Positions 11,641 to 53,789 of a DNA stretch of 64,000 bases are shown in pieces. The first letter of the stretch is position 1. Every line of letters starts with the position of its first letter. The notes below the pieces were generated by a model. That model did not search any database, was not told where the DNA came from, and was given only the letters and a program-made list of their open reading frames with translations. The stretch covers positions 62,001-126,000 of the forward strand of contig JANLFQ010000003.1 in NCBI GenBank assembly GCA_024653355.1. Reading direction: 5' to 3'. Source of the stretch: a candidate division WOR-3 bacterium (lineage in GTDB: Bacteria > Hydrothermota > Tepidihabitantia > Tepidihabitantales > Tepidihabitantaceae). Position numbers and translations under genes: made by a program.

Positions 11641-11646
11641 ATTCAC

Positions 11647-14659
<3,013 letters not shown>

Positions 14660-14662
14660 TTC

Positions 14663-14681
14663 GTCAGTCTGCTTCTTCTCC
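14663..14681 (+). other. 3' strand of the pre-23S processing stem
   Basis: Pairs with 11622-11640 outside the mature 23S ends. Confidence 0.65.
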
Positions 14682-14709
14682 TTAATTGTTTTACAATATG
14701 GAGTAAGAT

Positions 14710-14827
14710 TCCCGGCGGTGATACCGGAGGGGAAACACCTCTTCCCATTCCGAACAGAGTCGTTAAGCCCTCCAGGGCCGATGGTACTGCGCTGGTAACG
14801 GCGTGGGAGAGTAGGTCGCTGCCGGGT
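14710..14827 (+). rRNA. 5S ribosomal RNA
   Basis: About 118 bases starting TCCCGGCGGTGATACCGGAG and ending in GCTGCCGGG; the ends pair. It contains the conserved CCCATTCCGAACAG loop and GATGGTACTGC. It lies 50 bases after 23S. Confidence 0.95.
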
Positions 14828-41640: not shown

Positions 41641-41684
41641 AAAATATCATCGGGTATTAAGCGCTGATGTCAAGAATACCGCGG

Positions 41685-41712
41685 TTGACAAATAGATGGG
41701 ATTGGTCATTAT
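41685..41712 (+). promoter_or_regulatory. Promoter of the serpin gene, leaderless type
   Basis: TTGACA (41685-41690), 16-base spacer, CATTAT (41707-41712), eight bases to the ATG at 41721. Confidence 0.6.
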
Positions 41713-41720
41713 ATTCAGGT

Positions 41721-42917
41721 ATGAACACCATCATTTTGATTGTCAGTCTTTTCTTATCCGCTTCGCGAGGAGCGGAAACCGGGGTAATTGATGCAGAGCT
41801 GGTTTCAGCAAAGAACGAGTTTGGGTTCAAGGTTCTTTCAGCACTTGTCAGTACAGCGCCGCAGGAAAATGTGTTTATCTCGCCTTACAGTATTGCCACT
41901 GCTTTGACAATGACCTATAATGGTGCTGCCGGTTCCACCCGTACCGCAATGGGGGCAACGCTTGGTGTTGGTGGTTTAGAGGTTCAGCGGCTTAACACCG
42001 GAGAAAAATTTCTTGCTGCAAGATTGCAGAGTGCTAAACCGGGTCTGGAACTGTTGATTGCTAACTCGCTCTGGGCGAGGAAAGGGGTGGCGTTTAATTC
42101 CGCTTTTTTGAACACTAACAAGGAGTTTTATCAGGCGGTGGTGGCGACGATTGATTTCAATAGCCCGGATGCAGCGAAAAAGATTAACCAATGGGTAAAG
42201 GATAAGACAAAAGGGAAAATCGACAAGGTCGTTGACCGGATTAAACCTGAGGCGGTGCTCTTTTTAATCAATGCGGTTTTCTTTAAGGGCAGATGGCAGG
42301 AGAAGTTCGACCCCAGGAACAGTCAGGATGATAAATTTTATCCGGATGATGCCCAACCGGTGCTTGTGAAGATGATGATGCGTTCGGGTAAATTCCGCTA
42401 TCTGGAAACCGCGGAGTTTCAGGCGGTGGAGTTGCCTTACGATGAGGGCAAGGTTAGTATGCTGATATTTTTACCGGCCCGCGGTAAACTGGACAGTTTG
42501 ATTTCCCATCTGTCATCTTCCACCTGGCAGGAGTGGTGGAGCAGATTTCGGTCACGGGAGGGAACGGTTTGGTTGCCACGCTTCAAAATGGAGTATGAGA
42601 AGAGTTTAAAAGAGGTTTTAACAGAATTGGGGATGGGCGTGGCGTTTGACCTGAATCAGGCCGATTTTTCTTTAATGGGTAAAGGCGGTCCGGGTTTTGC
42701 CATCGGTGATGTGAAGCATAAGAGTTTTGTTGAAGTCAATGAAGAGGGCACGGAGGCGGCTGCGGTGACATCGGTGGAAATGGTTCTTGCGTCGGTACCT
42801 CCGCAACCTCGTTTTGAGATGGTTATCAATCGACCTTTCCTCTTCGCAATCCAGGATAATGAAACCGGCACAATTTTATTTCTCGGTGCAATGCGAAACC
42901 CCGCAGCGCATAATTAA
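41721..42917 (+). CDS. Serpin-family protease inhibitor
   Basis: A 398-residue protein with a signal peptide (residues 1-16) and a full serpin fold. It has NVFISPYSIATALTMTYNGAAGSTRTAM, NAVFFKGRWQEKFDP, the breach/hinge EVNEEGTEAAAVTS and the signature FEMVINRPFLFAIQDNETGTILFLG. The small-residue hinge (GTEAAAV) predicts an inhibitory serpin; the scissile bond probably lies near LAS. Export implies that it protects the envelope from extracellular proteases. An extension to 41667 is rejected because the promoter lies inside it. Confidence 0.93.
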   Translation: MNTIILIVSLFLSASRGAETGVIDAELVSAKNEFGFKVLSALVSTAPQENVFISPYSIATALTMTYNGAAGSTRTAMGATLGVGGLEVQRLNTGEKFLAARLQSAKPGLELLIANSLWARKGVAFNSAFLNTNKEFYQAVVATIDFNSPDAAKKINQWVKDKTKGKIDKVVDRIKPEAVLFLINAVFFKGRWQEKFDPRNSQDDKFYPDDAQPVLVKMMMRSGKFRYLETAEFQAVELPYDEGKVSMLIFLPARGKLDSLISHLSSSTWQEWWSRFRSREGTVWLPRFKMEYEKSLKEVLTELGMGVAFDLNQADFSLMGKGGPGFAIGDVKHKSFVEVNEEGTEAAAVTSVEMVLASVPPQPRFEMVINRPFLFAIQDNETGTILFLGAMRNPAAHN

Positions 42918-43860: not shown

Positions 43861-43889
43861 TTGACTGATATTACTATTTTTGCTATAAT
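43861..43889 (+). promoter_or_regulatory. Promoter of the giant regulator, leaderless type
   Basis: TTGACT (43861-43866), 17-base spacer, perfect TATAAT (43884-43889), seven bases to the ATG. Transcription and translation begin at the same place. Confidence 0.8.
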
Positions 43890-43896
43890 TCACACA

Positions 43897-46800
43897 ATGA
43901 CGCAGCGGGGAAGTGGTGAAAATTTACAATTTTCTCAACCCGTTGGTGACCGGTATTACATTGAAGAAATCCTTGGTGGAGGAGAAACTACTGAGGTTTA
44001 TCGGGTTCGCGACATTGTTACGGGCCGGTACCTCGCGCTGAAAACGGTACGTAGCGGGTGTCCTGAAGAAGAAAATGTAAGATTAAGCCGGGAATTTTTT
44101 TACCTTTCCCAAATTTCTCATCCCGGTGTGGTGGCGGTTCACGACTATGGCAGAATTACGGATGGTCGAGCCTATTTCACAATGGAGTATATCCCCGGAG
44201 TGCCGATAACCCGCTATTTTGGTGGTGGTTACGACCCGCGCTTAAACGATGTCATTGTGCAGATTCTTTTGGCACTGGATGCAATCCACGCCCAGGGAAT
44301 GATACACTGCGATTTAAAACCCGAGCATATTCTGGTTGTTGAGGACGAGGGGAAATTCAGCGTCAAACTGCTCGATTTTGGGTTTGCCGAGGATTTTTGT
44401 ATCGTAGGTCCGAAAAATGGAAAAGGCACACCTGGTTATGTAGCACCCGAGATACTGAAAGGGGTTGATTCTGATGTGCGGGCTGACCTTTACGCATTAG
44501 GGATGGTTATTTACGAGACATTAACGGGTATTGGTCCAGGAAGAGGGGCGGACCTTCTTGATTGGCTGAGGAAACAGCAACAAGGTGATTTTGCACCCCC
44601 TCGTTCCTTCAATTCTGATATCCCGGATAAACTGGACCGACTGGTGATGAAACTGATTAGCCCGCGTCCGGAGCAGCGACCGGCATCGGCACAAGCGGCC
44701 ATTGAGGAGTTGATTGGCGAGAACTTGTCTAATGTTGCATTGCCGGCGTTGCGGCGGGACATAATGGCTTCCGGGTTTGTTGCCCGGGAAGAGATTCTTC
44801 AAAAGTTAAAAGAGATTTTGCGATTTGTTGCTGATGGTCAGTCGAGTGTGGTTTGTATTTCCGGTGACCGGGGTGTGGGTAAGAGCCGGCTGCTTGCTGA
44901 GTTCAAATTTTATGCAGAAATGGAGGGAGCATCGGTATTCTCTTTCGAGCCCGTGTCGCTCAACGCCCGTTCTCAGTCGCTTATCGAGGCGCTGGTTGGG
45001 CTCTTGCGTAGCTACGGCCATACCGGAGCACCATTAATTTCGGTGGATGCGGGCAGGGAGAGTAACTACCGTTTGTTTGAGTGGGTAACTCAACGATTGA
45101 AACTGGTGGCAAACTCCCATCGGATAAAACACAGTTTGGTAATTATTGTGGATGACTTTGAACTTTTTGACCCGACAAGTCTGGATTTACTCCGTTACCT
45201 GGCGTTGGGGGTTGATACGGAACGGGTGATGCTCGTGGTGACCGGGCTGAAAGAAAAACGCTTTCTGGATACGATTGATGGGATTAAGCACCGTGCTAAT
45301 TTTCAACACATCGTTATTCCACCTTTTAAACGGGATGAGGTTAAAGAACTGGTGCTTTCCATATTAGGAAAGGTGCAGGATGTTGAACCTTTGATAGACT
45401 GGCTGTTTGAATTTACCGGCGGTAACCCGCTCTGGGTGGTGGAAACAATTTATGAGTTGATTGAAGATAAAATTTTGGTTAGAGAAATGTCGGGATGGAA
45501 TCTGGCTAAAGACCGGCTGGCGGCTTTCCGCCCGCCACCATCAATTAGTGATACAATCCGCCAGCGCGTTGAATCGTTAACCCCGGAGGAAAAATCGGTC
45601 CTGGAGATTGCGGCAGCGGCTGCAGGGCCTTTTACTCTTAAGTTGGTGCGGGCGGCGCTTAACCTTGAAGAGAAGGTTTTATTTAAGGCGATTAACCGAC
45701 TCAAGGGGCTTGGTTTTCTCAGGGCGTTCCGTGCCGCATGCCCGGAAGACAAATTCAGTTTTTCTCCGGGCTGGGTTCTCTCAAGTAAGATTCTCGAAAG
45801 CGTAATAGTTGAACGGCTGTCGGTTGAGGAACGGCGTGAGAACCATCGTAAAGTGGCGCTGGCTCTGGAGTTGCTTTATCCAGAACGAGTACCGGAGATG
45901 GTTTTTGACCTGGCACACCACTGGACACTTGCTGGTGTGCGGGACCGGGCTTATGACTACTCACTTCGCGCCGGGGCAAGAGCTAGGGAGTGGTTGCTCT
46001 TCGAGCAGGCGCTGGCGTTTTATGAAAACGCACTCAGCCTTTCAGCCGGTTTGATTACGGCGCGGGAGCGTGTTGGTTTGTTGGAGAAGGTTGGTGAACT
46101 GCGGGAACTGACCGGCAGATTTGCTGAGGCGATTGACATATATCGTCAGGGTATGGGGCTGGCGGTTGCTGAATCGGAACTTGCCCGGGATAAAAAGTTT
46201 CTTGCCCGATTTCTGCGTCGGCTCGGGCTGGTGTATCAAAAACAGGGGCTGGTAGCGGATGCGATAAACCTTTTGAATCAATCGCTTCATTTATTATCGG
46301 AAGACAGTTTGGAGCGGGCACGGCTTCTTGCCGACCTTGGTTGGTCCTATTGCGGGTCAGGAGATTTTAGCCATGCGGAGGAGGTTTTGACCACTGCTCT
46401 GCAACTGGCAGAAAAATTGAAGTCAACTGTGACCGTTGAAGCCAATCGGCTGGTGGGTTTGATACTTTACTACTTTGCGGTTCTTGCCTGGGCAAAATAC
46501 GATTTTGTGCTGGCATTGCAGCTGGCGGAGCGAGCGCTGGATGTTTTTGAGCGTTTAGAAGAAGAGATAATGAAAGCAACGGTGAGTCAGTTTATAGCAA
46601 CGCTTTACACTCGCCGGGGAGAAGCGGAAAAGGCAAAGGAGTTTTATCAGCGGGCTGTTGCGTGCCAGCGCCGGGCGGGTGCGGTTTATTATCTGCTTAC
46701 ATCGTTACAGGGGTTAGGTTTACTGTCTCTTGATGAGGGCGAGTGGAACCAGGCAGAGCAGTATTTCAAAGAGGCGCTGAAGATCGCGGAGCAAGTAGGC

Positions 46801-49146
46801 AACCTATCCGACCAAGTTAATCTCTATACGATGCTGGGTGGAGTATATGATGTCAAAGGTTTATGGTCTTTAGCACACGATTTTTATGGACGAGCCCGGA
46901 CAATTGTTGAACAAGATGAAGGTAAGATTGGCTTTCGCACCCGATTTGCTCTTCTGTGCAATATCGCTTTGCTACGGGCTAAACAGGGTGAACTTGGAGC
47001 GGCAGAAGAGTATATCGCCCAGGCAGCAAAGGTAATTGAAGGGGTTGACGATTCGTATTTACAATTTAATCTGTTGGTAAACCAGGCTGAGGTTGCTTTA
47101 CGGGCAGAGCGGTTGGAACGGGCAAAGGGATTCCTTGTCAGAGCATTCTGGATTGTGGCCAGGGAGCCGGACTGGCGCAAACTGGCAAAACTGTACATCC
47201 TTTCAAGCCGGCTCCGTCTTGCTGCCGGTGACAGTCATCGGGCGCACTATGCGGCAAGCAGGGCGCTAACCTTGCTTCGGGACTATCCATCTTCACTGGA
47301 GTTCGCCATCGCCCTACGGTGTTCGGGATTGGCAAAGTGCAAACTTGACCAGATGGAAAAGGGGCAGGCGGAGTTGAGACGCAGTATTGAAATCCTTCGG
47401 CAGTTAGGTGTTAAGTATGAACTGGCGCTTTCGCTGAGTGCGCCGGCTAAGAGTTTGACTGGGGAAAGCCGCGTCTCGGGTTTGAAGGTGCCGATTACCA
47501 GTCGGCAGGTTTCCCGGGAGGAGTTCAACGAGATAAAGTTGAATTTGAAGGAGGCGATTGGGTATTTTCAGGAGTTGGGAGCGAAGCCAGAGGCACAGGA
47601 GTGCGAACAACTTCTGGATACGCTGGATCAGGCGTTTGGCGTTTTGCAGTTAAAGGCGCAGGAGCGGAGTGAGTACCTGAAGGTCTTTTACCAGTTGAGT
47701 GAACTTTTAAATCTGGGATTGAGTCGTGAAGACTTCCTTGACCGGGTACTTGATTTAGTGCTTTCAGTTACCAAGGCAGAGAGGGGATTAATATTTTTTA
47801 TCCATGGTAACCGGCTAATCCCGGTTGCAGCCCGGGATATTGACCATCGGACCCTTGAGGATGCAACCGCGGTTTCGCAAACGGTTTTACGCAAGGTCAA
47901 GCGGCGGGGTGAACCTTTAATCAGTGCCGATGCGCTTGCTGACCCGAGACTCAACAGTTTTAACAGCGTTCTATTAAACAAAATTCGCTCGCTTCTGTGT
48001 GTGCCGCTTATCGTAGAAGGTAAGGTGATTGGTACAATCTACCTTGACTCCCGAATTACATCCCATCTATTTTTAGAAGAGGACCGAAGTTTGCTGCTGG
48101 CGGTGGCGAATCTCCTGGCTGCAACGATTGACCGCTCAACAACCTTCCGGGAACTGCAGGAACAGATTTCAGATATTCGTGAAGGCATTTTAGTTGACGC
48201 GGCAACCGGTTTATTTCTGGGTAGGTCTAAAGCAATGCGACAGGTTTATCAGGTTATTGACCGGATTGCACCGACAGATTGCACGGTGTTACTGACCGGT
48301 GAGACTGGCACCGGCAAGGGTGTTCTGGCACGGCTGATTCATCAACGGAGCGGGCGTAAAGACAACAAGTTTGTTGCGGTGAACTGCGGAACTTTGCCCG
48401 AGACTTTGTTTGAATCTGAACTGTTCGGTCATGCCCGGGGTAGTTTTACCGGTGCGGTCAAGGATAAGGTCGGTATTTTTGAAACCGCACATGGGGGAAC
48501 GATTTTCCTCGACGAGATTACCAACACCACCCTGACAATCCAGGCGAAACTTCTGCAGGTGCTGGAGGAAAAGGTGATTCGGCGGGTAGGCGAAACCGAA
48601 CCCCGAATGGTTGATGTCCGTCTGATTTGTGCTACAAATAAAAACCTTGCCGAAGAGGTAAAAGCGGGTAGATTTCGAGAAGACCTCTACTATCGGATGA
48701 ATGTTGTGGCGATAGAGGTGCCGCCGCTCAGGGAAAGGGTCGGCGACATACCTCACCTTGCCGACTATTTTCTGCACAGTTATGCGACACAGTTGAATAA
48801 ACCTATACTGGGGTTTGAAGATGATGTGATTGCCGCCTTTACTCAGTACCACTGGCCCGGTAATGTCCGGGAACTTCAAAATACGATTGAAAGGGCGGTG
48901 ATAATGACCCAGAACCGCCGAATTTCGCTTGCCGATGTGGGCAAACCATTCACCGATATGCAGATTACCCCAGAGTTTCCCGGAAATAAGAAACGGACAA
49001 TTGACAAGGAGCAGGTGGTCAACGCATTAAAAGAAACAAACGGGAACATCACTCGAGCCGCGGAACGCCTTTCAACCCACAGGCGCCAACTCCAAAGGCT
49101 TATAAAACGATACAAAATAGACCTTGACAGCCTGCGGCAGGCGTAG
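43897..49146 (+). CDS. Giant kinase - AAA - TPR - GAF - sigma-54 activator - HTH regulator
   Basis: A 1749-residue fusion. Residues 11-275: Ser/Thr kinase-like domain with the Lys of YLALKTV, MIHCDLKPEHILV (His in place of the usual Asn of DLKPEN), LLDFGFAED and APE. About 300-640: AAA_16/STAND ATPase with GDRGVGKSR and LVIIVDD. About 670-1240: TPR repeats. About 1265-1415: GAF. About 1440-1675: sigma-54 AAA+ domain with GETGTGKG, GSFTGA (for GAFTGA) and GTIFLDE. 1698-1745: Fis-type HTH. By family knowledge this is an enhancer-binding protein that remodels RNA polymerase-sigma-54; its signal may enter through the ATPase, TPR or GAF parts. The gene stands alone, with an autoregulatory-looking upstream site. 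Confidence 0.88.
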   Translation: MTQRGSGENLQFSQPVGDRYYIEEILGGGETTEVYRVRDIVTGRYLALKTVRSGCPEEENVRLSREFFYLSQISHPGVVAVHDYGRITDGRAYFTMEYIPGVPITRYFGGGYDPRLNDVIVQILLALDAIHAQGMIHCDLKPEHILVVEDEGKFSVKLLDFGFAEDFCIVGPKNGKGTPGYVAPEILKGVDSDVRADLYALGMVIYETLTGIGPGRGADLLDWLRKQQQGDFAPPRSFNSDIPDKLDRLVMKLISPRPEQRPASAQAAIEELIGENLSNVALPALRRDIMASGFVAREEILQKLKEILRFVADGQSSVVCISGDRGVGKSRLLAEFKFYAEMEGASVFSFEPVSLNARSQSLIEALVGLLRSYGHTGAPLISVDAGRESNYRLFEWVTQRLKLVANSHRIKHSLVIIVDDFELFDPTSLDLLRYLALGVDTERVMLVVTGLKEKRFLDTIDGIKHRANFQHIVIPPFKRDEVKELVLSILGKVQDVEPLIDWLFEFTGGNPLWVVETIYELIEDKILVREMSGWNLAKDRLAAFRPPPSISDTIRQRVESLTPEEKSVLEIAAAAAGPFTLKLVRAALNLEEKVLFKAINRLKGLGFLRAFRAACPEDKFSFSPGWVLSSKILESVIVERLSVEERRENHRKVALALELLYPERVPEMVFDLAHHWTLAGVRDRAYDYSLRAGARAREWLLFEQALAFYENALSLSAGLITARERVGLLEKVGELRELTGRFAEAIDIYRQGMGLAVAESELARDKKFLARFLRRLGLVYQKQGLVADAINLLNQSLHLLSEDSLERARLLADLGWSYCGSGDFSHAEEVLTTALQLAEKLKSTVTVEANRLVGLILYYFAVLAWAKYDFVLALQLAERALDVFERLEEEIMKATVSQFIATLYTRRGEAEKAKEFYQRAVACQRRAGAVYYLLTSLQGLGLLSLDEGEWNQAEQYFKEALKIAEQVGNLSDQVNLYTMLGGVYDVKGLWSLAHDFYGRARTIVEQDEGKIGFRTRFALLCNIALLRAKQGELGAAEEYIAQAAKVIEGVDDSYLQFNLLVNQAEVALRAERLERAKGFLVRAFWIVAREPDWRKLAKLYILSSRLRLAAGDSHRAHYAASRALTLLRDYPSSLEFAIALRCSGLAKCKLDQMEKGQAELRRSIEILRQLGVKYELALSLSAPAKSLTGESRVSGLKVPITSRQVSREEFNEIKLNLKEAIGYFQELGAKPEAQECEQLLDTLDQAFGVLQLKAQERSEYLKVFYQLSELLNLGLSREDFLDRVLDLVLSVTKAERGLIFFIHGNRLIPVAARDIDHRTLEDATAVSQTVLRKVKRRGEPLISADALADPRLNSFNSVLLNKIRSLLCVPLIVEGKVIGTIYLDSRITSHLFLEEDRSLLLAVANLLAATIDRSTTFRELQEQISDIREGILVDAATGLFLGRSKAMRQVYQVIDRIAPTDCTVLLTGETGTGKGVLARLIHQRSGRKDNKFVAVNCGTLPETLFESELFGHARGSFTGAVKDKVGIFETAHGGTIFLDEITNTTLTIQAKLLQVLEEKVIRRVGETEPRMVDVRLICATNKNLAEEVKAGRFREDLYYRMNVVAIEVPPLRERVGDIPHLADYFLHSYATQLNKPILGFEDDVIAAFTQYHWPGNVRELQNTIERAVIMTQNRRISLADVGKPFTDMQITPEFPGNKKRTIDKEQVVNALKETNGNITRAAERLSTHRRQLQRLIKRYKIDLDSLRQA

Positions 49147-49208: not shown

Positions 49209-49215
49209 TGCGACA
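49209..49215 (-). promoter_or_regulatory. TGTCGCA motif upstream of the sigma-54 promoter
   Basis: TGCGACA on the plus strand is the reverse complement of the motif repeated before the regulator gene. It lies about 90 bp before the -24 box, a usual enhancer distance. TGCGATA at 49274-49280 is a near match. Confidence 0.5.
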
Positions 49216-49301
49216 ATTTTGTTTTGTCATTGTTGTGAATAAAAAGCTGGGTGGATATTATAAGTTACAATTCTGCGATAGTTATAATAAGCATAAAAAT
49301 G

Positions 49302-49317
49302 TGGCATTGTTATTGCA
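49302..49317 (+). promoter_or_regulatory. Sigma-54 (-24/-12) promoter
   Basis: TGGCAT, five bases, TTGCA matches the TGGCAC-N5-TTGCA consensus with the essential GG and GC at correct spacing. Transcription would start near 49328. It is the only such match I noticed in an intergenic region of the window. Confidence 0.75.
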
Positions 49318-49376
49318 ATTATAAAAGTTAGTTTGGATTAATTAGGTCAGGTTCTTTATATAAAAAGGAGGAAGCA

Positions 49377-49433
49377 ATGGACGGCATCGTTCCGATTCTC
49401 CCACCCCCGCGGCCTGCGCCACCGGTGAAGTAG
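49377..49433 (+). CDS. 18-residue proline-rich micropeptide
   Basis: The sequence is MDGIVPILPPPRPAPPVK, preceded at ideal spacing by AAAAAGGAGGAAGCA. Seven of 18 residues are proline and the last residue is Lys; there is no signal peptide. It lies about 50 bases inside the predicted sigma-54 transcript, and a strong terminator follows 20 bases after the stop. No plus-strand gene follows until about 55279, so it is not an attenuator leader for a downstream gene. It could be a secreted or internal signal, a ribosome-stalling peptide (PPP and PP motifs) or a coding-capable small RNA. Function unknown. Confidence 0.6.
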   Translation: MDGIVPILPPPRPAPPVK

Positions 49434-49452
49434 GTGCACAGGCGTTAAATTG

Positions 49453-49487
49453 TCCTCAGCCCGCAATGCGGGCTGAGGATTTTATTT
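49453..49487 (+). terminator. Terminator of the micropeptide transcript
   Basis: A 12-bp perfect stem TCCTCAGCCCGC/GCGGGCTGAGGA with a 3-base loop, then TTTTATTT. It ends next to the convergent radical SAM gene. Confidence 0.9.
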
Positions 49488-50412
49488 ATCGGGATTCGTA
49501 AAATGTTTTTCCCCAGAAGGCGACCTTTTTTATCAAACCTTCTTTGACCATTTTTTCGAGTACCGGCTTTATCTCACGGGCAGGAATTCCGAGGGAACGG
49601 CAGAGGTCTTCTTCGGTTACAGGTCTATTCTGCACTACGGCAAGGACCGCTTTCTGGCTGTTGCCGTGGAATTTTCTCTGTCTCTTTTTAATCGGTGAGA
49701 AGGCGATTTCGGCTTCAGGTCCAAAGAGCAGTTTCACCTGGTTCAGGTCGTCCATTGTTAGGGGCAGGGCGTCTTTTTCTGCTGGCGGCCGCACCACAGT
49801 GTTCAGGTGGACCCGGTCCGGCTTTATTTCATAGGCAAGCCGGCGAAGTTTCATCAGATGTTCAGGAGAGTCGTTAACTCCTTTTACCAGCATAATTTCC
49901 AGCCACAACTTTCCTTTATAGTAACGACGAAATGTCTTGAGCCCCTGAACAATTTTTTCAACCTTTAAGTCTGGATGACACCGGTTAACGCGATGAAATG
50001 TTTTCTGGTCTGCGGCATCAAGGCTGGGAACGACCAAGTCCGCCGGGTACAGGTCGTGGCGGACCTTCGGGTCCAACAAAAGGGTTGAATTGGTGATGAC
50101 CGCTACCGGGATTTTGAACTCGGCTTTGAGAAGGCGGATGAGTTTTCCAATGTCTTTGTTTAGGGTGGGTTCGCCTTCGCCGGAAAAGGTGAGATAGTCA
50201 ATCCGATGTTGAGCAACTGCGGTGCGCACTTCCTTGAGAATTTCATCTATCGGGTAGAATGAGCGGCGTGCTAAGGTGAGTTTAGTTGTTCTGCCACACT
50301 GGCAGTAGATGCAGTTCAGGGTGCAGGTTTTCTTCGGGATAATGTTTAATCCCAAAGAAAGCCCGAGACGTCGGGAAGGTACCGGGCCATAAACATAATT
50401 TTTGATTATCAT
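49486..50412 (-). CDS. Radical SAM protein with C-terminal winged helix (COG0731-like)
   Basis: A 308-residue protein starting MIIKNYVYGPVPSRRLGLSL, with the cluster motif CTLNCIYCQC, the glycine-rich SGEGEPTLN (SAM-binding), ITNSTLL and a C-terminal region (about 250-308) that looks like a winged helix (VTEEDLCRSLGIPAREIKPVLEKMVKEGLIKK). The family is widespread and its reaction is not established. It starts as ATGA on the stop of the C25 peptidase gene and is the last gene of that minus-strand operon. Confidence 0.85.
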   Translation of the reverse strand: MIIKNYVYGPVPSRRLGLSLGLNIIPKKTCTLNCIYCQCGRTTKLTLARRSFYPIDEILKEVRTAVAQHRIDYLTFSGEGEPTLNKDIGKLIRLLKAEFKIPVAVITNSTLLLDPKVRHDLYPADLVVPSLDAADQKTFHRVNRCHPDLKVEKIVQGLKTFRRYYKGKLWLEIMLVKGVNDSPEHLMKLRRLAYEIKPDRVHLNTVVRPPAEKDALPLTMDDLNQVKLLFGPEAEIAFSPIKKRQRKFHGNSQKAVLAVVQNRPVTEEDLCRSLGIPAREIKPVLEKMVKEGLIKKVAFWGKTFYESR

Positions 50413-53400
50413 CTTTTGACCAGTTTACAGGTATTTTTTGTCCTGGGCAAGTGGGGTGCGGCACCGGTCGTAAGATGAATGAAGTAGATGCCAGGAGGCA
50501 AGGTATTGCCCTGTGTGTCGGTCCCGTCCCAAGTACAGGCATACCAGCCGGCGGGTTGCTTTTCTTGCACGATTGTTTTAATCTTCCTGCCACTGACATC
50601 AAAAAGAGTTAAAGAGACATCGGAATTTTGAGCAATGGAGTAGAAAATGGTGGTGCGGTTCCGGCAGGGGTTTGGGAAAACGCGAAGCAGATGTGCCGAA
50701 TCCGGAGCAGGATGGGTGAGTGATTCAACGGTTGTGACCTGGATGTCATCAAGGTAAAAACCCTCGCCGGTTTTGCCGTCACCGTCGGAGACAAAGAGAA
50801 ATTTAATCTGAACCGATTCGCCGGCAGGATATGAGGAAAGGTCGAAACTTTCTTTAAGCCAGGTTGAGGTCAAACCCATTTTTTCTTCAGATAGGGCACC
50901 ACCAGTTCCGATAAAGTAAAGGGTGTCTTCCCGGTTAGGGGTAATTAATATGACATACAAACCATCCACACCGTAAATCGGCAATGAGAACCATCGGTAG
51001 AATGTCAAAGCGGCAAATGGGGGCAAAGCAAAGCGGGGTGAGAGTAACCAGTACGAGGCGCGGTCAGGATAAGTGCCGGTTTCATTACCTGCATAGCAGG
51101 CAAAAGATGGGCTGTGGAATCTCCGGGTTGAGAGTGACCAGGACCCGTTCTCACCACCGGTTGTCCAGGTGCCGAAACCGGAATCAAAATCGGTATAGAT
51201 GCCAAGGGTATTGGAGGCGATTGTCAATGTGTCACTGGTAAGGTGCCGATTTGCGGTGATGTTTACACCAAGTTGAAACCGACCGGTGCCGACAAACCGG
51301 GCCGGGGTTAAAGACCAGACAGTTTCTCCGGGCGCGATATCGGGAAAGATTAAACCCGGGGTTATTATTTGGGGCAACAGGGTTTCGGGTCGAGGCAGAA
51401 AAATGGTTCCAGATGGCTGGGTTGCAGATGCCAAACCCGAGTTGGTAAGTTTAATAAACAGGTTAACGGTGTCCGGATAGGAGATGGTTGTTAAGTAGCT
51501 GACAAGTCGCAGTACAGGTGTACCGATTTGCAGGGTGAGCGGCAGGGAAAGGCGGAAACCGATGGGTTCGGTAAATGTCAGGATGCAGGGAACAGTTTGA
51601 CCGTTGCGGCTAAGGGTGCTACAGCGGAAGCTGAATGAGGTTAAGACCGTTTCGCTTTGCGGTTGCAGGGCAGGGATAGAAACGGCTTTGTTTGTAAAGA
51701 TAACAAAGGGTGAGGTTGTTGAAATTGAACAGCGGACCGGATTGGTTTGCAGAGTGCCGGTGTTGGCGATGGTCAGATGAAGGCGATAGGTTTGACCCGG
51801 TGAAAGGAATTGGGTGGTTTCGGCTTCAGGAGTGATAAGTCGGTAACCGGTAACCGAAAGGGTAGGTTGGCTAAATACCGGAATGGAATCTTCAAGCGGC
51901 AGGTGATTGGATGCGGTGATGATAATGCGGACAGTTGAGGTGCTGGAGAGTGTAATTGGCAGACAAAGGGTGCCTGCGGTTGAAGTTCTGCCCCGGGCAA
52001 GGAGCGTAGAGTTCTGGATAACTGTGACCCGGGCACCGGTAACCGGTCCCGCAGGGTCTTGAACTGCAAGCCAGACAGAGTTTTCACCCACGGTCAGATG
52101 GGAAGGTTTGCTTACAGTCAGCGGAATCGGGGTGGCGGTGAAGATGAGCATTGCCGGGTCACCTAAGAGGTTAAGGCAGTACTGATGCCAGCGATAAACA
52201 TTGGGTTCAAAACTGTAAGGAGCAAAGAAAAGTTTGGTGCGGGCAAGAATTTCACCGATACGAGGCTCGGCGTGGCCGAACAGCTCCTTAAAGAATCGGA
52301 AATCAAACCGGTCCGAGTAACCGAATCCCGGGTTACCAGGCGAACCCCAACCATACGAGGAGTTACCGATGAACGCTACCGCACCGCCCTGCGGATTACG
52401 GATAAAATGTTCTGCGATGGCGTCAAGGTCAAAGGCGTTGGTCCAGCACCCGATTGAGTAGCCGATGCCGGCACGGCTGAAGTTGATGAGCCCATCAACA
52501 TCCTGGTTGCGCAGGGTGGCACCGCGGGCAAGGCTCAGGGCGTTGAACCAGCCGTGACCGCAGTGGTTGAAGAAGTTAAAACCACTGTTGAGCAGGGCAC
52601 AGGCGGTATCAACGGTAACCGTCATCCGGGACTCGTACAGTTTGTGAATCGGTCCGTATCCAACGGGAAGTGCCTGAGCAGCGATTCGTTCTTTGGCAAT
52701 GGCTTCGTCGGTATAAGGCTCATCCCAGAGGATTGCAGCGGAGAAAAGCGTGCGGGTTTGATAGTCGTATGTCCTGCCCAACTCATAGGCGATTAGTTTG
52801 TCCACATAGGCGCGTGCCTGCTCCGGGGTGTTTACCGGCACCCTGCCAACATAGATATCAGGATAAAGGTCAACGCTGTCTTCGGTTTCACCGAACACGC
52901 CGTCGCCATCCGCGTCCCAGTTGCCATCAAGGCAGGAGTAGTAAAAGTCACAGGGCAACGAGTCTTCGCGGGGATGAAGCCCGGCTGAGCAAGCCAGCGC
53001 AAACGCCTTGCGTACCGGGACAATGTCAACATCTCCGCCCAGCAAGAGGTATTTTAAGCCGGAGTCCTGGGCGCACTGTTGCAAATAGTTCCTTAATTTT
53101 TCTGCCGGGTCCTGGCCCTGATAAACTGAGGTTATCCATTCAATTGCTCGACAGCCGGTGTTGAAGCCTGTTTGCTGACGCCAGCGGGCAAGAGGCGCAA
53201 AAACGGTGTCCATTGTTTGGGAGGTGACGATGAGGTACTCCAGGGGTCCGGTTTCTGCCCATTCCGCAGTCGATTGGAACTTGTGTTCAAAGGCGAGATT
53301 CACCTTTTTGATGAGCCGGACCCGGTTTTGTTCGGGTAACAGTTGCAAAGGGAAGATAAGGAGCGAGGCAACTGGTTTACCCCGCATATACCCCTGATTC

Positions 53401-53789
53401 GTAATAACGCAGACCGATTCCGGATAGGGGTTTGAAAAATCGATAAGGGGCGGTTTCCCACTTAATTTTTGTGCCGGTAGAGAAAGGATGTTCGGGGGTG
53501 GAACATAAGCAAGATTAAAACTACCGGGCAAAGTTTCGTATTCAACACTAACCGTTTTAATACCGGCGAGACGGGTGTTAGGAGGCAGCAAAATGTTAAT
53601 TGGCTTTACGGGCAGGGCAGGGTTATTGGGTGGAGTCGCAATCTCAGCATCGGGCAGGTTGAACAAAGTTCCGTTCTCGGTGATGGACAATTGCAAATCG
53701 GCATGGGAAAAAGTGAAGGTGTGGACAACGGTTTGTGCGGTTGTGTCAATGAAGAGGCAAAAAAGAAGAAGGAGAAGGTGAGCCGCCAT
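50409..53789 (-). CDS. Gingipain-like C25 peptidase with C-terminal sorting-type domain
   Basis: An 1126-residue exported protein. Signal peptide: residues 1-18. A propeptide-like region (20-190) precedes the C25 catalytic domain (about 195-560), which has YLLLGGDVDIVPVRKA, PDIYVGRVPV, catalytic-type His in FNHCGHGW and Cys in GYSIGCWTNAFD. Ig-like and adhesion-like beta domains follow. The last ~80 residues (RVFPNPCRNRTTIFYSI ... SLTLFDVSGRKIKTI ... LPPGIYFIHLT) are a T9SS/FlgD-type C-terminal domain. It is predicted to be secreted and surface-attached. Confidence 0.85.
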   Translation of the reverse strand: MAAHLLLLLFCLFIDTTAQTVVHTFTFSHADLQLSITENGTLFNLPDAEIATPPNNPALPVKPINILLPPNTRLAGIKTVSVEYETLPGSFNLAYVPPPNILSLPAQKLSGKPPLIDFSNPYPESVCVITNQGYMRGKPVASLLIFPLQLLPEQNRVRLIKKVNLAFEHKFQSTAEWAETGPLEYLIVTSQTMDTVFAPLARWRQQTGFNTGCRAIEWITSVYQGQDPAEKLRNYLQQCAQDSGLKYLLLGGDVDIVPVRKAFALACSAGLHPREDSLPCDFYYSCLDGNWDADGDGVFGETEDSVDLYPDIYVGRVPVNTPEQARAYVDKLIAYELGRTYDYQTRTLFSAAILWDEPYTDEAIAKERIAAQALPVGYGPIHKLYESRMTVTVDTACALLNSGFNFFNHCGHGWFNALSLARGATLRNQDVDGLINFSRAGIGYSIGCWTNAFDLDAIAEHFIRNPQGGAVAFIGNSSYGWGSPGNPGFGYSDRFDFRFFKELFGHAEPRIGEILARTKLFFAPYSFEPNVYRWHQYCLNLLGDPAMLIFTATPIPLTVSKPSHLTVGENSVWLAVQDPAGPVTGARVTVIQNSTLLARGRTSTAGTLCLPITLSSTSTVRIIITASNHLPLEDSIPVFSQPTLSVTGYRLITPEAETTQFLSPGQTYRLHLTIANTGTLQTNPVRCSISTTSPFVIFTNKAVSIPALQPQSETVLTSFSFRCSTLSRNGQTVPCILTFTEPIGFRLSLPLTLQIGTPVLRLVSYLTTISYPDTVNLFIKLTNSGLASATQPSGTIFLPRPETLLPQIITPGLIFPDIAPGETVWSLTPARFVGTGRFQLGVNITANRHLTSDTLTIASNTLGIYTDFDSGFGTWTTGGENGSWSLSTRRFHSPSFACYAGNETGTYPDRASYWLLSPRFALPPFAALTFYRWFSLPIYGVDGLYVILITPNREDTLYFIGTGGALSEEKMGLTSTWLKESFDLSSYPAGESVQIKFLFVSDGDGKTGEGFYLDDIQVTTVESLTHPAPDSAHLLRVFPNPCRNRTTIFYSIAQNSDVSLTLFDVSGRKIKTIVQEKQPAGWYACTWDGTDTQGNTLPPGIYFIHLTTGAAPHLPRTKNTCKLVKR

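Follow-up and report, generated by a model that had tools for sequence, protein, structure and literature searches.

A giant sigma-54 activator paired with a proline-rich micropeptide gene in candidate division WOR-3: a possible peptide-receptor cassette

Most known cases in which a TPR receptor inside the cell reads a gene-encoded peptide signal come from Firmicutes and their phages. In the RRNPP/RRNPPA systems (Rap-Phr, NprR-NprX, PlcR-PapR, Rgg-SHP and AimR-AimP), the receptor is compact, being either an N-terminal HTH with TPRs or a Rap protein, with no other catalytic domains, and the peptide follows an Opp export and re-import route. The Phr of phage Phi3T is present in tandem copies (PMC11343458). 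The leaderless communication peptides (LCPs) are intercellular signals of Firmicutes, in which their re-import has been studied (PMC10518010); in LCP-RopB, a very short leaderless signal gene is paired with a TPR regulator. RRNPP_detector deals with Firmicutes and viral receptors that are 250-500 aa long (PMC10075063), limits of size and taxon by which the WOR-3 system described here would be missed.

The locus compared here with these systems lies in a 64,000-nt stretch of DNA (the window) from a candidate division WOR-3 bacterium, whose genome (1.88 Mb in six contigs) is 98% complete. The gene at 43897-49146 on the plus strand encodes a protein of 1749 aa from the ATG at 43897; a TTG at 43861 is a possible start further upstream. 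A proline-rich micropeptide unit, from promoter to terminator, follows 156 nt behind this gene on the same strand. The proposed activator (UAS) half-site TGCGACA is at 49209-49215, 93 nt upstream of the -24 box. The sigma-54 -24/-12 promoter TGGCATTGTTATTGCA (TGGCAT-N5-TTGCA) spans 49302-49317, from which transcription is predicted to start at about 49328. The Shine-Dalgarno sequence AAGGAGG (49365-49371) lies five bases before the ATG of the micropeptide gene (49377-49433, 18 codons and a stop), which encodes MDGIVPILPPPRPAPPVK. An intrinsic terminator (49452-49487) with a 13-pair stem at 49452-49480, a 3-nt loop and the T-rich tail TTTATTT closes the unit. Promoter and terminator together predict a transcript of about 160 nt, the only product of which is the short proline-rich peptide.

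A preliminary description of this DNA had placed the promoter, the Shine-Dalgarno sequence and the 18-codon frame at these same positions, and had noted the absence of a following plus-strand gene, which the list of open reading frames bore out as far as about 55.2 kb. Its terminator stem and T-run were also present, with 13 pairs in the stem instead of the 12 counted.

A convergent radical SAM gene is found at 49486-50412. It would be the maturase if the micropeptide were a RiPP precursor, and such a gene is also present in four related loci. However, it is on the opposite strand, is not beside the peptide gene in most other loci, and resembles what we take to be a widespread housekeeping-type radical SAM family. 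It was rejected as a partner because its position is not conserved, and we regard a RiPP precursor as highly improbable. Elsewhere in the window are a full bacterial serpin (PF00079, E 2.8e-117) at 41667-42917, two genes upstream of the regulator, a C25 peptidase (gingipain family) on the opposite strand at 50409-53789, and 23S and 5S rRNA genes at 11646-14827.

The upstream gene had been taken for a sigma-54 activator, and Pfam searches agreed. The product contained, in this order, a Ser/Thr kinase, a MalT-like AAA_16/STAND NTPase, a TPR superhelix (45529-47661, TPR_12 and TPR_MalT), a GAF domain, a sigma-54 AAA+ domain (PF00158, Sigma54_activat, E 6e-72) and a Fis HTH (HTH_8). The Walker motif GETGTGKG, the GAFTGA-type loop GSFTGA and the HTH are those of an enhancer-binding protein. 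RpoN is encoded in the genome (PF04552, E 2.4e-53), and at the DNA level the target has a -24/-12 promoter with upstream activator sites. The GSFTGA AAA+ domain, the Fis HTH, the upstream sites and the adjacent -24/-12 promoter are shared with activators of the NtrC, NorR and RtcR type. On the other hand, the regulatory part here is kinase-STAND-TPR-GAF and the target is a micropeptide. The matches of the regulator in PADLOC were only a generic kinase and an RtcR-type activator, so no link to defence is claimed.

Residues 285-1255 were modelled by AlphaFold2 with 23 orthologues (pLDDT 86.7). The first Foldseek match of the model was 6mfv, a STAND protein with a TPR sensor. In VIA-align, the N-terminal part of the model matched the NTPase region of MalT (8bob, Z 23.9) and Apaf-1 (Z 23), and the TPR part matched MalT DIII (Z 26.9, rmsd 4.0, 348 residues aligned). 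The succession of STAND NTPase and TPR superhelix (AAA_16, TPR_MalT and these Z scores) is that of the MalT-like STAND proteins, and both modules are like those of the MalT/STAND activators and of the PknK-type kinases with a MalT-like part. MalT itself senses maltotriose; it lacks the kinase, GAF and sigma-54 domains and is not known to have a peptide gene.

The TPR part also matched Rap-CSF (competence and sporulation factor; Z 25.5, rmsd 4.2, 349 aligned), phage Rap with pheromones (Z 24-25) and NprR-NprX (Z 21.3), all by VIA-align; its sequence similarity to Rgg_C and AimR was below cut-off only. TPR superhelices are versatile and bind many ligands, a sugar in the case of MalT DIII, so that these fold matches permit, and do not prove, peptide sensing. 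The MalT-DIII/Rap-like C-terminal half of the TPR part (TPR-C) was the fastest-diverging segment of the regulator in most comparisons, with identities of 21-39% in L012, L016 and L018 against 59-77% in the sigma-54 domain; this fast divergence was absent in the closest pair. The GAF domain was better conserved than the kinase, NTPase or TPR.

The genus, family and order to which the window belongs yielded full-length orthologues of the regulator. Seventeen order-level orthologues were intact with readable downstream DNA; L009 and L017 ended at contig edges. All 17 encoded a proline-rich product in the downstream slot. At 15 of them this was a leaderless peptide of about 16-21 residues: MDGIVPILPPPRPAPPVK (window), MDAPIVPILPPPRPAPPVK, MDGWARPLPPPAPAPPQV, MDGYPIPPKPGPLPDPPSQG, MDGPIIPILPPPLPAPPMN, MDGPIIPILPPPRPAPPMD, MDGPFAPIYPPPIPAPPTA, MGPFAPIPIPPMPGPVTPPPY, MMGTPFPIPPMPLPITPPPY, MEAIAPFPIPPMPGPWTPPPF, MYGIPIPPRPGPLNPPY, MFGVFVPPPPLPCPPK, MFVRFVPPPPLPVPPK and MFGVFVPPSPLPVPPK, with two copies in adjacent genes at L134 (MNDSFPILPQPGPIAPPLGI and MNDSFPILPQPGPIAPPLY). 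In the remaining two (L010 and L016), the place of the short frame was taken by a protein with a signal peptide and four repeats, EDGGTFPPTPGPNGDGM and DGIPHPPKPVPPTQP, respectively.

The layout was also maintained. Nearly all order loci had the regulator stop, a TGCGAC site, the -24/-12 box, a Shine-Dalgarno sequence and the short frame in this order, and a terminator followed the frame where checked. The promoter was conserved in alignment A3, and GGAGG was at the same position in the aligned loci. The box was about 145-175 nt after the regulator stop (201 in L016, 378 in L023) and farther from the start codon in L013 and L015; the strict pattern did not detect it in L178. The recurrence of frame and box beside homologous regulators spoke strongly for the unit claimed in the preliminary description.

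A fixed rule (a proline-rich frame with a Shine-Dalgarno sequence) detected 16 of the 17 orthologues, compared with 0.20 expected from dinucleotide shuffles. L010 fell below the cut-off because its proline-rich repeats are spaced by Gly-rich linkers. Behind other sigma-54 activators of the same groups, no such frame was found (0/20). A sequence model of promoter and peptide gave a single strong match in each genome that has the regulator, next to the regulator gene (the tandem locus gave two), and no strong match in genomes without the regulator. No extra copy elsewhere in the order was convincing. L117 (a second copy in G013, a 947-aa open frame) had no peptide, nor had L030, L033 and L133 by the criteria used. 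L137 and L141 were set aside as matches inside coding sequence.

Between the window locus and its nearest relative, L006, the peptide gene differed by seven synonymous changes, one non-synonymous change and one codon insertion (P = 0.0009). The synonymous bias held in four independent pairs combined (P = 0.003), and in alignment A3 the amino-acid pattern was kept while the nucleotides diverged. These comparisons indicate that the peptide gene is real and conserved in the order, and that the peptide itself is under selection.

The same data bear on whether the transcript acts as a regulatory small RNA in which the frame is incidental. The transcript is short with a strong terminator, and its fold z-score is -2.2, mostly due to the terminator stem. 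In addition, L135 (G022:C32:673-781, minus strand) has a TGCGACA site, a -24/-12 box and, soon after, a terminator-like hairpin, without a proline-rich frame. Against this stand the synonymous bias, the divergence of nucleotides under a kept amino-acid pattern, and the larger precursors with a motif of this kind that take the place of the gene in relatives (see below). Rfam matched only rRNA and tRNA in the window, hence no known RNA family at the micropeptide locus. The small-RNA reading has very little probability in our judgement. L135 in its own right may be a small-RNA gene that this regulator targets.

In the gap between regulator and promoter, TGCGAC/GTCGCA was present in 15 of the 17 order loci (1.0 expected), and in most of these its distance upstream of the -24 box was about 90 nt. 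In the rest of the class, palindromes were found between the regulator stop and the promoter, and their sequence differed from clade to clade: the full palindrome TGCGACA-N3-TGTCGCA in L031 and L128, TGTGTCATTTTGACACA in L027 and L028, and TGTCACAATATTGTGACA in L120 and L121. The regulon of the window genome was viewed by pattern searches. TGGCAYN5TTGCW had seven occurrences in the 1.88 Mb, of which only that of the window locus was outside a long open frame with TGCGACA upstream. The UAS-plus-promoter pattern occurred once in this genome, at the peptide gene, and no second target with the same site was found by these searches. Degenerate or distal sites may exist, so that the regulator need not serve this transcript alone.

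At the level of sequence conservation, control of the peptide gene by the adjacent regulator, including the firing of the peptide promoter, is well supported; the sequence also supports the sigma-54 promoter itself and translation of the peptide. This agrees with the earlier proposal that the peptide gene depends on sigma-54 and is controlled by its neighbour, as opposed to being an attenuator. Other activators in these genomes were also followed directly by a sigma-54 promoter and a secreted protein: one of 66 aa with TTGAGACA/TGTCTCA sites in L149 (G006:C8:388114), and a long one in L162 and L153.

In the rest of the class, copies of the regulator were about 32-35% identical. In roughly 20 of 29 of these, the slot encoded a small protein with a proline-rich tail, and a Sec-type signal and a -24/-12-like box were nearly always present. 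Examples are ...SPAVAYA|DTDTVFVPRPPPPPPID (L027) and ...TPAVAFA|DSDTVKAPAPPPPPPPIN (L116), with cleavage sites predicted by eye. These tails, following the likely signal-peptidase site, resemble the leaderless 18-mers. Many class-level tails end in PPPPPID-like sequences, and their length is that of the leaderless peptides. The class-level precursors matched no NCBIfam family.

Elsewhere in the phylum, the slot mostly contained a Sec signal and a short, usually proline-rich tail, often repeated, such as DDPLPPPPII twice in L205 and a PRPPGV type three times in L190. L214 had GGPNDGGGFIDELK twice, which is not proline-rich. Tandem copies thus occurred in separate lineages (four in L010 and in L016, two in L205, three in L190, two in L042/L204 and two in L214). 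Together with the two adjacent genes of L134, they indicate that the repeat unit is the functional entity. A protein of about 62 residues that looks Sm-like (LYEVKMxDGxxYxGEIxYRDxKM...) and has no NCBIfam match was encoded after the peptide gene in many relatives from the class and the phylum (L024-L028, L116, L123, L128, L206, L209, L211 and L214), and not in the window's order.

The peptides might alternatively be proline-rich arrest peptides, with a Sec leader in the relatives, whose stalling is the regulatory event. PPP and PAPP motifs are present in several members, and in class-level members a signal sequence is combined with a poly-proline tail at the C-terminus, an arrangement like that of Sec-monitoring arrest peptides. 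However, a conserved motif was lacking, PPP being absent from the L008, L020, L134 and L178 peptides, and nothing follows on the window transcript. The tandem repeats would have no obvious role, and an activator-dependent promoter of its own would be unnecessary. We consider an arrest peptide quite improbable. The arrest-peptide, small-RNA and RiPP readings all fit worse than a ligand. Among the roles offered in the preliminary description, a peptide signal is favoured, and a small RNA, a toxin-like peptide and a stalling peptide are disfavoured because of the codon-level conservation, the repeated peptide units, the low net charge and the non-conserved PPP.

Departures from the usual arrangement were found in some lineages. 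In the Hydrothermota locus L042/L204, the sigma-54 loop is DAFPGA in place of GAFTGA. Its promoter looked sigma-70-like by eye (TTGACA-N17-GTAAAAT), and RpoN is nevertheless present. The slot still encodes MKVGTRNGIPIDMPGSPRPPWVADGIPIDMPGSPRPPW, so that the peptide was kept despite the lost GAFTGA. This lineage apparently switched its promoter type from sigma-54 to sigma-70. In family f9, the paralogues L031, L125 and L127 are second giant regulators with an HD-GYP-type protein in the same slot, which suggests that the peptide is the usual, and not the only, target; perfect TGCGACAATTTGTCGCA dyads were seen at this slot in L031. At two Latescibacterota loci, L054 and L060, a related giant activator is followed by a -24/-12-like box and a short frame. 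These frames share a conserved acidic tail (PLLPFPDNDPDWDDFDQ and PPLPFPNDDDDWDDFDQ) and may be a separate peptide family.

Oligopeptide-binding proteins (PF00496) were absent from all 28 genomes of the window's order, as was SbmA from the order. Of the 33 other genomes in the class, 24 had PF00496, with f6, f7 and f9 represented; it was absent from f8, whose peptides carry a leader. Leadered peptides coincided with Opp in f6 and f9, while f8, G003 and G018 had leaders without Opp. In the window genome, without Opp-type or SbmA importers, classical pheromone export and re-import is unlikely. Since the peptides of the order are mostly leaderless and Opp/Dpp-type and SbmA importers are missing, intracellular action or an unknown transporter is most likely.

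We propose that the locus is an autoregulated two-gene cassette, in which the peptide is the ligand of the MalT/Rap-like TPR-STAND sensor of the regulator; we put the chances of this at about even. The regulator would bind the TGCGACA-type sites that directly follow its gene and, together with the RpoN holoenzyme, fire the -24/-12 promoter of the peptide mRNA. The peptide would be sensed by the TPR-STAND part, so that the switch responds to how much of its own product is present, and the outcome could be positive feedback or feedback inhibition. The kinase and GAF domains probably add further inputs. In the window's order, the peptide would most likely act inside the producing cell, or via an unknown transporter; in several other WOR-3 lineages it would be made from a signal-peptide precursor, often in tandem copies, as expected of a released signal. 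The proposal draws on the tight pairing (17/17 in the order, roughly 20/29 in the class, further classes, and 0/20 controls), the UAS sites, the synonymous bias, the repeats, the tails like the 18-mers, the peptide kept after GAFTGA loss and the sensor fold. Counting against a ligand role are the non-ligand targets that activators often adjoin (L149, L153 and L162), the missing PF00496 and SbmA in the order, and the HD-GYP-type slot in L031, L125 and L127.

The absence of another same-site target in the genome fits equally well with the peptide being the output, which is the strongest rival of the ligand model. The regulator would then sense something else through its GAF, kinase or TPR, and the peptide would be a short proline-rich effector with some other partner in the cell, or with a role outside it where leadered. 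Adjacent non-ligand targets are common in these genomes, as seen above, the UAS-plus-promoter pattern is confined to the peptide gene in the window genome, GAF is the better conserved input domain, and HD-GYP-type proteins are driven instead in some paralogues. On the other hand, the pairing with one receptor architecture, the repeats and the Rap-like sensor fold suit a ligand better. With a net charge close to zero or below it, the peptides differ from cationic proline-rich antimicrobial peptides: the window peptide has one D, one R and one K, and strong positive charge and Pro-Arg motifs were lacking, L012 and the class-level tails being neutral to negative. We consider an output role somewhat unlikely.

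The ligand model resembles the RRNPP/RRNPPA systems in the similar fold of its proposed TPR sensor, in the small peptide gene directly beside the receptor at all 17 order loci, and in the WOR-3 relatives with a Sec leader and a short C-terminal peptide, some in tandem. It differs in the receptor, a kinase-STAND-TPR-GAF-sigma-54-HTH protein of 1749 aa, in the lack of a leader in the window peptide and of PF00496 in the order, and in being a sigma-54-driven WOR-3 system with proline-rich 16-21-mers. With LCP-RopB it has in common the pairing of a very short leaderless gene with a TPR regulator, and it differs from it by the lack of a PF00496 importer, the receptor class and the sigma-54 control. 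We infer a system that works like the RRNPP and leaderless-peptide systems (PMC10075063, PMC10518010, PMC11343458), and is not an RRNPP member, as neither the receptor architecture nor the Opp route was found. No description of such a regulator-micropeptide pair was found in the papers searched, which were open-licence PMC text.

Across the phylum, giant kinase-STAND-TPR-GAF-sigma-54 receptors may each have their own short, usually proline-rich autoinducing peptide, ranging from leaderless intracellular 18-mers to secreted multi-copy precursors, with one lineage apparently rewired from sigma-54 to sigma-70 while the kind of peptide was kept. We hold this wider view tentatively, at slightly less than an even chance. 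If true, the conservation of such a pair in a candidate phylum without cultured members would carry the peptide-receptor principle over to sigma-54 control and STAND NTPases. The natural variants, with or without leader, with or without Opp, in one to four copies, and under sigma-54 or apparently sigma-70, bear on the origin of such systems. The micropeptide gene was overlooked by gene finders because it is very short, and strongly conserved genes of 16-20 codons are thus present in DNA left blank by annotation.
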